Positions 4,227 to 61,869 of a stretch of 64,000 bases of DNA are shown piece after piece (the stretch's first letter is position 1; each line of letters starts with the position of its first letter). Made by a program: the position numbers and the translations under genes. The DNA lies in the NCBI GenBank assembly GCA_013177995.1, contig JABLXN010000006.1, positions 1 through 64,000 on the forward strand, read 5' to 3'. Source of the DNA: Brevinematales bacterium. Its GTDB lineage: Bacteria; Spirochaetota; Brevinematia; Brevinematales; Thermospiraceae. The notes beneath the pieces are model-generated. The model was not told the origin of the DNA. It saw only the letters and a list, made by a program, of their open reading frames with translations, and did not search any database.

Positions 4227-4455
4227 GTTTGCTGAAATGATACCTTTGCACGAATGTGCGAAGGTATCAAAAAAGTAATAAAAAAATAAAAATAGTATAA
4301 AAATATTCCTTATCATAATAAATAATTCTACTTTTTTGAATAAAAAAGACAAATAGGCCCTTGTAAACAGAAAAAGCGGGGAAGAGGGGCGTAGCCCCTG
4401 ACCCAAACAGGGGAAGAAAACACCCGTGCAAGGGTCTCGAAATAAGGTGATAGCC
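4227..4455 (+). repeat. second-family short repeat, interrupted by copy A
   Basis: GTTTGCTGAAAT at 4227-4238 and AAGGTGATAGCC at 4444-4455 join into one 24-base motif once copy A and one target duplication are removed. It matches the intact motif at 61575-61598 at 22 of 24 positions and a more diverged one at 29384-29406. Confidence 0.7.
4239..4438 (+). mobile_element. hairpin-ended mobile repeat, copy A (200 bp)
   Basis: A full-length copy. The 5' hairpin at 4239-4268 has arms GATACCTTTGCAC and GTGCGAAGGTATC around loop GAAT. The right end reads GTGCAAGGGTCTC, ending at 4438. The flanks GAAAT at 4234-4238 and GAAAT at 4439-4443 are a perfect 5-bp target duplication. Compared with other copies, both arms carry a matching change (GAGACC to GATACC and GGTCTC to GGTATC) that keeps the pair. 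The body is an A/T-rich stretch followed by a GC-rich part with the hairpin AGGGGC-GTA-GCCCCT. Removing the element and one GAAAT restores a sequence that matches the DNA beside copy F at 22 of 24 positions. No transposase is encoded. Confidence 0.9.
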
Positions 4456-21049: not shown

Positions 21050-21250
21050 GAGACCTTTGCACGAATGTGCGAAGGTCTCAAGAAAGTAATAAAAAACAAA
21101 AAATAATATAAAAATATTTCTTCTCGTAATCAATAATCCTATTTTTTTGAATAGAAAAGACAAATAAGCCCCTGTAAACAGAAAAAGCGGGGTTTCAGGG
21201 GTGTAGCCCCTGGCCCAGACAGGGGAAGAAAACACCCGTGCAAAGGTCGC
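21050..21250 (+). mobile_element. hairpin-ended mobile repeat, copy B (201 bp)
   Basis: The 5' hairpin at 21050-21079 has arms GAGACCTTTGCAC and GTGCGAAGGTCTC around loop GAAT. The right end is degraded, reading GTGCAAAGGTCGC at 21238-21250. The body carries the CAGGGG-type module (GGGGTTTCAGGGGTG then TAGCCCCTG). No target duplication is visible (CTCTT on the left, TATAT on the right), in keeping with the decayed right end. The right end supplies the last base of the stop codon of the EamA transporter gene on the other strand. Confidence 0.85.
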
Positions 21251-29112: not shown

Positions 29113-29315
29113 GAGACCTTTGCACATTCGTGCAAAGGTCTCGAAAAAGTAATAAAAAGCAAAAATCAAGTTAAATGTGTTTCTTTATGTAATAAATAAT
29201 CCTATTTTTTGGAATAAAAAAGGCAAATAAGCCCTTGTAAACAGAAAAATCGGGGTTTCAGGGGCGTAGCCCCTGACCCAGACAGGGAGAGAAAACACAC
29301 CCGTGCAAGGGTTTC
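29113..29315 (+). mobile_element. hairpin-ended mobile repeat, copy C (203 bp)
   Basis: The 5' hairpin at 29113-29142 has arms GAGACCTTTGCAC and GTGCAAAGGTCTC around loop ATTC, the reverse complement of the GAAT loop in copies A, B and E. The right end is GTGCAAGGGTTTC with one changed base, ending at 29315. The flanks AAAAC at 29108-29112 and AAAAC at 29316-29320 are a perfect 5-bp duplication. The body has the CAGGGGCGTAGCCCCTG module. Confidence 0.9.
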
Positions 29316-34597: not shown

Positions 34598-36058
34598 TTA
34601 CTTTCCCTGAGACATCCGATAACTCATCTCATTCTTGTAGAGTTTATCATAGTAGTAACCACGTTTGCTGAGTTCTTCTTTGAGTTTGTCGGGGAAGGGG
34701 ACATAACGCCAGAAGATGAATCGGACATCATTGTCGGCTAATTTCTGGATACCTTCGCATTCCTTGGTCATCCAGAGGATATAGTCATTGATGAAGTGCA
34801 GTTTGATGTCCCCTTTGATTTTGTTCGAGGAGATATATTCGTAGTATTTTCCGGAGAGACCTTCGTCCATCCAGTGATAACCGGCCAATTCCTTGGCCAC
34901 CTGCCAGCGGAAATCCCCCATGGCCATCACAATAGAGAACATGGGATTTTTGGCAAAAACTGGTACGGCCACTCTTCCTTTACTTGTCGCCTTGTTGTAA
35001 CGATCATAGGGTTCCCAGCACATACCGTAGGTACCGTATCCAGGGACAAGAATCACATAGGGAGGGACACGGTTGGTGTGCTGGCGGAAGGTGCGCTGGA
35101 AGATGGTGAAATCCAGTTCTTCCACCTGCCGGAGTCTCTCAAGAACACGCATCTTGAAGTTGAAATCACGTGTTTCTCTGGGGAGGAAAGAACTGGAGAG
35201 AACGGGGAAGTGATTTCCCTGTCTTCCAACGGTCATCTTTATCATCTGGCGAATGGCGTTGAGTTCGTTTTCGGCGGTGTGTTTGTCCACGGAATAGGTG
35301 ATTTTTTCTGCTGATTCCATGTTGAGTTCTTGCTGAACCTTTTCAAACTCTTCGTAATGTTTATCGTAGGAATTTTTGGTGACAGTGAGTTCTTTATCCA
35401 CCTTTTTGAGGTCCCTGACGAGATCTAAGAGTTCATCAAGGTTTTTCTGTTGCGATTCGGTGTAGGTATCGGGGAGGTTAAGCAGGGGTTCGGTCGTATG
35501 CTGGGTGATTTGCGCTACAAGGGATTGGAGGTTTTCTTCGAGGATTCTCCGCCGCTCCAGGGCCGCCATATACACATTCCGTTCAGCATCTAAGGCACCG
35601 CTCATTCTTTCATATTTGGCCCTGAGAGCATCGTCTTTTTTTTCGGAGGAGGTTTTGGGTCTTTCGTCTGTCATACTTGGCTTGATGTTTCCGGAGAGGA
35701 TTTCAATGAGCCACTCGTCCACATAAAAGACGGAATTGTCCGGGTCGTGTTCTTCGAAGGGCTGGGAGAGGATCATCTTCTGATCTTCTGGTTGGAGGTA
35801 TCTGAGATCTAAAATACCATAACGGATAAAAAGTCGCTTCTCTTTGGCCATATTTGGGCTCATTTTCTGCCCGATAGCGTAGTAGAGATTCCACACGGCA
35901 TTGGCAAAACGGTCACGAAAAATAGCCTTTCGTTCTTTGTCGGTTTCTTTTTCATACTGGTTTTTGAGAGAGAGAAGATTTTCGACAAGCTCGCTATCCT
36001 CTCCACTCAGTACCTTTTTCAGGAAGCTGTCCGGCAAACTCTCATAAAGTCTACCCAT
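34598..36058 (-). CDS. uncharacterised cytoplasmic protein, 486 aa
   Basis: I do not recognise this protein. It looks cytoplasmic. The first 130 residues are helical (SLPDSFLKKVLSGEDSELVENLLSLKNQ, with landmark ends SLPDSF and LLSLKNQ). Residues of about 150-270 form a predicted coiled coil with heptads such as LDELLDLVRDLKKVDKELT. The last 200 residues are aromatic and basic with VILVPGYGTYGMCWEPYDRYN and MAMGDFRWQVAKELAGYHWMDEGL. It is likely one of the large spirochaete-restricted proteins of unknown function, which is inference. It is the first gene before recG (one base apart). The start at 36058 is preceded by AGGAGAAGGGT. Confidence 0.65.
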   Translation of the reverse strand: MGRLYESLPDSFLKKVLSGEDSELVENLLSLKNQYEKETDKERKAIFRDRFANAVWNLYYAIGQKMSPNMAKEKRLFIRYGILDLRYLQPEDQKMILSQPFEEHDPDNSVFYVDEWLIEILSGNIKPSMTDERPKTSSEKKDDALRAKYERMSGALDAERNVYMAALERRRILEENLQSLVAQITQHTTEPLLNLPDTYTESQQKNLDELLDLVRDLKKVDKELTVTKNSYDKHYEEFEKVQQELNMESAEKITYSVDKHTAENELNAIRQMIKMTVGRQGNHFPVLSSSFLPRETRDFNFKMRVLERLRQVEELDFTIFQRTFRQHTNRVPPYVILVPGYGTYGMCWEPYDRYNKATSKGRVAVPVFAKNPMFSIVMAMGDFRWQVAKELAGYHWMDEGLSGKYYEYISSNKIKGDIKLHFINDYILWMTKECEGIQKLADNDVRFIFWRYVPFPDKLKEELSKRGYYYDKLYKNEMSYRMSQGK

Positions 36059-36125
36059 ACCCTTCTCCTGTTTTTCTCTTTGCCCCTGATAGTATATCCC
36101 ATCTTGAAGAAAATGTCAATACTTT

Positions 36126-36155
36126 GAGACCTTTGCACATTCGTGCAAAGGTCTC
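36126..36155 (+). mobile_element. solo 30-bp hairpin, copy D of the mobile repeat
   Basis: Arms GAGACCTTTGCAC and GTGCAAAGGTCTC surround loop ATTC and make a perfect 13-base-pair stem. The hairpin is flanked by ACTTT at 36121-36125 and ACTTT at 36156-36160, a perfect 5-bp duplication. Nothing of the body or a separate right end is present. The simplest origin is deletion between the two direct copies of the inner arm (5' hairpin and right end) in a full element. Confidence 0.9.
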
Positions 36156-36267
36156 ACTTTTCTCCTCGGGAAAAGGCTTTTCCAATGTAATTTTTTCCGG
36201 AACAACTTTTCAAAAGACCCATAACGAAGACGTACAGAAAAGAGAAACCCCCAAGAAACAGAATTTT

Positions 36268-53896: not shown

Positions 53897-54098
53897 GAGA
53901 CCTTTGCACGAATGTGCGAAGGTCTCAAAAAAGTAATAAAAAACAAAAAATAGTATAAAAATATTTCTTTTCGTAATTAATAATCCTATTTTTTTGAATA
54001 AAAAAGACAAATAAGCCCCTGTTAAACAGACAAAACGGGGTTTCAGGGGCATAGCCCCTGACCTAAAAAGGACAAGAAAGCCCCTGTGCAAGGGTCTC
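53897..54098 (+). mobile_element. hairpin-ended mobile repeat, copy E (202 bp)
   Basis: The 5' hairpin at 53897-53926 has arms GAGACCTTTGCAC and GTGCGAAGGTCTC around loop GAAT. The right end is GTGCAAGGGTCTC ending at 54098. The flanks ATTCT at 53892-53896 and ATTCT at 54099-54103 are a perfect 5-bp duplication. It lies between the convergent ends of the SNF2 gene and bioA, five bases past its own right duplication start before the bioA stop. The body has the CAGGGGCATAGCCCCTG module with a shortened right part. Confidence 0.9.
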
Positions 54099-61669: not shown

Positions 61670-61869
61670 GAGACCTTTGCACATTCGTGCAAAGGTCTCA
61701 TAAAAGTAATAAAAAACGAAAAATAGTATAAAAATATTCCTTGCTATAATAAATGATACTTTCTTGTTGAATAAAAAAGACAAATGAGCCCTTGTAAACA
61801 GAAAAAACGGGGAAGAGGGGCGCAGCCCCTGACCCAAACAGGGGAAGAAAACACTTGTGCAGGGGTCTC
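61670..61869 (+). mobile_element. hairpin-ended mobile repeat, copy F (200 bp)
   Basis: The 5' hairpin at 61670-61699 has arms GAGACCTTTGCAC and GTGCAAAGGTCTC around loop ATTC. The right end reads GTGCAGGGGTCTC, ending at 61869. Flanks are AACGT at 61665-61669 and AACTT at 61870-61874, a 4/5 match. The body shares with copy A the variant GGGGAAGAGGGGCG and the segment CCCAAACAGGGGAAG, so A and F form one body sub-family even though their loops differ. Confidence 0.88.

Follow-up and report, generated by a model that had tools for sequence, protein, structure and literature searches.

The window is the whole 64,000-nt stretch of DNA that was analysed (C54:1-64000), taken from a Brevinematales genome (G000) of 2.38 Mb in 57 contigs. 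At positions 36126-36155 it holds a 30-bp palindrome, called D here and assigned to neither strand, which reads GAGACCTTTGCAC-ATTC-GTGCAAAGGTCTC and forms a perfect 13-bp stem from an outer left arm (36126-36138), the loop ATTC (36139-36142) and a right arm (36143-36155). Both arms are directly abutted by ACTTT on the + strand (36121-36125 and 36156-36160), the two copies of a 5-bp target site duplication (TSD); the perfect hairpin between two ACTTT copies given in the preliminary description is therefore exact at 36121-36160. By chance, 5-bp flanks would match in 0.1% of cases at random sites and in 1.8% when flanks are exchanged at random between elements, and the arm motif was found 19 times in the window compared with 3.3 expected when up to 2 mismatches are allowed. 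Beside D lies a promoter on the - strand (36091-36119), consisting of TTGACA at 36119-36114, a 17-nt spacer and TATACT at 36096-36091. It matches the consensus at 11 of 12 positions, is kept in both congeners (G001 and G002) and serves the gene at 34598-36058 (- strand, 486 aa). No Pfam or NCBIfam match was obtained for this gene. Its orthologues in the two congeners share 96% and 89% identity with it, and all genomes of the order and class that were searched contain it.

D is not a chance palindrome, since 159 such palindromes (up to 3 mismatches) are present in the genome and none in nine relatives, both congeners included; a control with the reversed pattern also gave 0. From the absence in these nine relatives it follows that the family spread in the host lineage or its close kin. 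The sequence of D is that of the left-end hairpin of a MITE, to which most of these palindromes belong. For the catalogue of this family, we sampled about 800 kb taken in stretches, and added the surroundings of most of the remaining perfect copies. It contains 130 palindromes, of which 100 belong to full elements, 16 to partial ones (about half of these at contig ends) and 14 had no body detected by BLAST with the body sequence. A full element is laid out as hairpin, AT-rich body and right end, with a length of about 201 bp and 5-bp target duplications. Among the 96 well-bounded full copies, lengths range from 191 to 208 bp, mostly 198-204 bp. The element is thus short, non-coding and multicopy (96 full copies measured, 159 palindromes), it is bounded by 13-bp terminal inverted repeats, with exact 5-bp TSDs in 53 of the 96 copies and an empty site at D in the congeners, and it shares its ends with an autonomous partner in the same genome, the 1366-bp insertion sequence (IS) described below. 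Contig ends lie at or near MITE copies in C6, C9, C26, C27, C29, C30, C46 and C51 of the genome, which indicates that the assembly was interrupted by this element.

The five other copies in the window are all full elements of about 200-203 bp on the + strand, with right end GTGCAAGGGTCTC or a variant of it. They are located at 4239-4438 (200 bp, TSD GAAAT), 21050-21250 (201 bp, no TSD), 29113-29315 (203 bp, TSD AAAAC, loop ATTC), 53897-54098 (202 bp, TSD ATTCT) and 61670-61869 (200 bp, loop ATTC, with a TSD agreeing at 4 of 5 bases, AACGT/AACTT). Across the 96 full copies the inner arm of the hairpin (GTGCA/GAAGGTCTC) and the right end (GTGCAAGGGTCTC in 52 of them and close variants of it in the others) are direct repeats, as had been proposed from the window. 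The proposal that the element ends at the arm edges is borne out by exact 5-bp TSDs in 53 of these 96 copies and in 6 of the 14 solo palindromes, that is, those without a body.

The partner IS is located at G000:C27:24319-25684, has perfect GAGACCCTTGCAC ends (the right one being GTGCAAGGGTCTC) and was the sole full copy found. Its left end matches the MITE right end exactly over 17 bases. The transposase is an intact DDE enzyme of the IS5 family and matches NF033581 (transpos_IS5_4) with 283 bits against a cut-off of 140, as well as DDE_Tnp_1 and DUF772 in Pfam. The flanks of this single copy agree at 4 of 5 bases, while the MITE makes a 5-bp TSD; for the ISPg elements of Porphyromonas gingivalis, TSDs of 2-9 bp are given in the published description (PMC4596501). 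Judging by the matching ends, the IS is the likely helper that mobilises the MITE. Two other DDE_Tnp_1 matches (C38 and C36) were considered as partners and rejected because no element with these ends surrounds them, and a TSD-flanked candidate of 1417 bp on C23 turned out to enclose an ordinary gene between ends paired by chance. In addition, 96 bp of partner IS sequence (G000:C12:73955-74050; 3' end of the transposase, 91% identical) directly abut a MITE copy; this is perhaps the relic of an older IS copy that was hit by a MITE.

Near-identical ends have been published for IS5-family MITEs of P. gingivalis and for ISNme1, as described in PMC4596501. According to that description, the BrickBuilt MITE of P. 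gingivalis, with ISPg1/ISPg9, has the ends GAGACCTTTGCA / TGCAAAGGTCTC, and it resembles the present element in having an IS5-family partner and in being intergenic and non-coding. BrickBuilt contains internal 23-nt tandem repeats, and about 19 copies of it are reported there (PMC4596501). Unlike BrickBuilt, the present MITE has a left-end hairpin and is represented by about 160 palindromes; its TSD is consistently 5 bp long, and it has solo derivatives of 30 bp. ISNme1, an IS5-family element of Neisseria meningitidis, is cited in PMC4596501 with the similar ends GAGACCTTTGCAAAA. The ATR element was assigned to ISNme1 by its ends, as was done for the MITE here, a likeness that holds by the cited description (PMC4596501). 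Both differ from our case in the host, and the account of them cited there (PMC4596501) speaks of no solo hairpin.

Alignment of the D site showed that the palindrome is missing from both congeners. At the homologous place there is a single AAAGT (ACTTT reversed) in G002 and AAATT in G001, directly before the TTGACA of the -35 box. The 96-residue gene on the other side of D is also kept in G002, and the flank upstream of D aligns poorly with the congeners, the spacer being of different length. Since the site is unoccupied in both congeners, D is an insertion derived in the host lineage. The comparison with relatives suggested in the preliminary description therefore settled that D was inserted; contrary to the meaning given to it there, it does not separate the insertion of a solo palindrome from that of a full copy followed by deletion. 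Similar flank searches for the solos C10:26909 and C8:2049 matched the neighbouring sequence, and the site itself was not recovered. On the other hand, D abuts a near-consensus - strand promoter and scores terminator-like on the + strand, as would suit a palindrome that serves the host as a regulatory site or terminator and has nothing to do with mobility. Such an origin is scarcely credible for a palindrome that is identical to the MITE left-end hairpin, is flanked by a TSD and is missing at the same promoter in both congeners.

We then consider the solo palindromes as a class. The check for solo copies elsewhere that had been proposed for D gave 14 among the 130 catalogued palindromes, of which about 11 are clean. 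Three were set aside: C56:72535 with a probable body stub, the nested C18 L023:2094, and L108:2453 with 30-bp flanking repeats. The last of these (L108:2453-2482; G000:C36:12995-13024) comprises the palindrome and six body bases, and lies in frame within a glycosidase-like gene between 30-bp direct repeats instead of 5-bp ones (FVILNSSGST-RPLHECAKVSKK-FVILNSSGST). Six clean solos (D, C8:2049, C1:32353, C16:16298, C10:26909 and C21:~5321) have an exact 5-bp TSD, for which the chance probability, computed on all 14 solos, is about 8e-8. In the sample of about 800 kb, the TSD-marked elements are 30 bp or 198-203 bp long, plus one of 138 bp; of the five 30-bp rows listed, one (C56:80209) belongs to a full copy as its hairpin. 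These lengths fit breakpoints at the direct repeats.

The two repeats can be distinguished by arm position 7. In the full copies this base is G in 92 of 96 right ends, and in the inner arms it is A in 96/96 and G in 0/96. Four of the 11 clean solos (C8:2049, C8:114742, C16:16298 and C21:~5321) carry G, which differs from the 0/96 of the inner arms with a Fisher p of 6e-5. The test is conservative, because on the unsampled contigs the listing took in exact palindromes alone, and G-bearing solos were thereby under-counted there. Moreover, the loop of C16:16298 is ACCC, a sequence that stands before the right end in full copies (AAACACCC in 48 of the 96), so its crossover lies upstream of the loop with the register unchanged. 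With several solos containing right-end sequence at exactly 30 bp and with the TSD kept, the internal deletion between inner arm and right end that had been suggested for D is supported. D itself has A at position 7, the inner-arm base, and so has C10:26909, a solo identical to D with TSD AAACT; their crossover would thus fall beyond position 7. For D this base is compatible with deletion and is not diagnostic, as the insertion of a lone hairpin would look identical.

A lone insertion is the other origin raised in the preliminary description, in which the 30-bp hairpin, bearing both transposase-binding ends, was itself mobilised into the D site as a minimal transposon. The two perfect ends and the exact 5-bp TSD of D agree with it, and so does the identical solo at C10:26909 with its own TSD. 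However, the hairpin that is most frequent among the full copies has the sequence of D and C10:26909, so no private ancestry is shown by their identity, and right-end sequence in 4 of the 11 clean solos is not expected of a free hairpin. Two transposase-bound ends just 4 bp apart are also sterically unlikely. No positive evidence was gained for the minimal unit, and we regard this origin of D as unlikely. That an IS5-type transposase moves the 30-bp hairpin besides its arising through deletion is likewise quite doubtful; if true, the hairpin would be among the smallest TSD-making mobile units known. The deletion could alternatively be made by the transposase, with cleavage of both inner arm and right end and rejoining of the flanks that leaves hairpin and TSD intact. 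Inner arm and right end are nearly the same sequence in the same orientation, so the enzyme could cut each of them at its 3' edge, and the perfect inner-arm sequence is kept in D and C10:26909. But this process gives no solos with a right-end base in the arm or a right-end loop, which at least one third of the clean solos have, and it is highly improbable.

We therefore consider that D is most likely the remnant of a MITE of about 200 bp and IS5 type that lost its body between direct repeats. A full element, moved by an IS5-family transposase recognising the GAGACCYTTGCAC ends, would have entered just upstream of the promoter and duplicated the 5-bp target ACTTT; the insertion is apparent from the empty sites, and the helper is deduced from its ends. 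Such an element has two directly oriented copies of one 13-base sequence, about 172 bp apart: the inner hairpin arm and the right end. In-register replication slippage or recombination between these repeats would remove the body and one repeat. The product would be a palindrome of 30 bp, made up of the left arm, the loop and a fused right arm, with an intact TSD, as is seen in the solo class and presumed for D. Pairing of the left arm is possible with each of the two repeats, and for this reason the hairpin probably promotes the switch. A literature search on bacterial MITE hairpins that are solo or have lost internal sequence, and on slippage at palindromes, returned nothing close.

The hairpins of full copies vary in two further respects. 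When the loops are oriented on the body, GAAT is found in 77 and the inverted ATTC in 12 of the 96 full copies. A tree of the bodies that includes 10 ATTC copies requires 10 changes, and no two of these copies appear to share an origin, most forks being weak; shuffled loop labels need 9.6 changes, so the tree shows a lack of clustering and not a bias. Inner-arm position 5 is A, the perfect-stem form, in all 12 ATTC copies, and G in 34 of the 77 GAAT copies (p=0.003). These observations suggest repeated template-switch inversion of the loop. Several stem changes were also found on both arms and not at the right end, for example GATACC/GGTATC in the copy at window 4239 and GAGAAC/GTTCTC at C8:27131. 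Paired-arm changes with the right end unchanged where checked were noted at window 4239-4268 and at C8:27131, C56:79043, C56:54560 and C16:98739 of G000. The arms behave as if they were self-correcting. Paired stem changes are a signature of template switching in hairpins (PMC8794818), and the MITE hairpins resemble that mutation in both loop inversion and paired changes; the published case concerns hairpins of rRNA genes (PMC8794818), whereas here the hairpin is the end of a mobile element. Template switching could also restore a perfect stem after deletion, giving an alternative route to the perfect D.

The fate of D is neat but ordinary for such an element. It illustrates a decay route for a MITE that has one of its ends duplicated inside its own hairpin: body loss leaves a TSD-flanked palindrome, and the crossover position is recorded in the solos by one diagnostic base. 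A remnant of this kind could be confused with a regulatory site or with a minimal transposon. The genome offers more than 100 copies of one hairpin, in which events of slippage, loop inversion and stem correction can be tallied under natural conditions.
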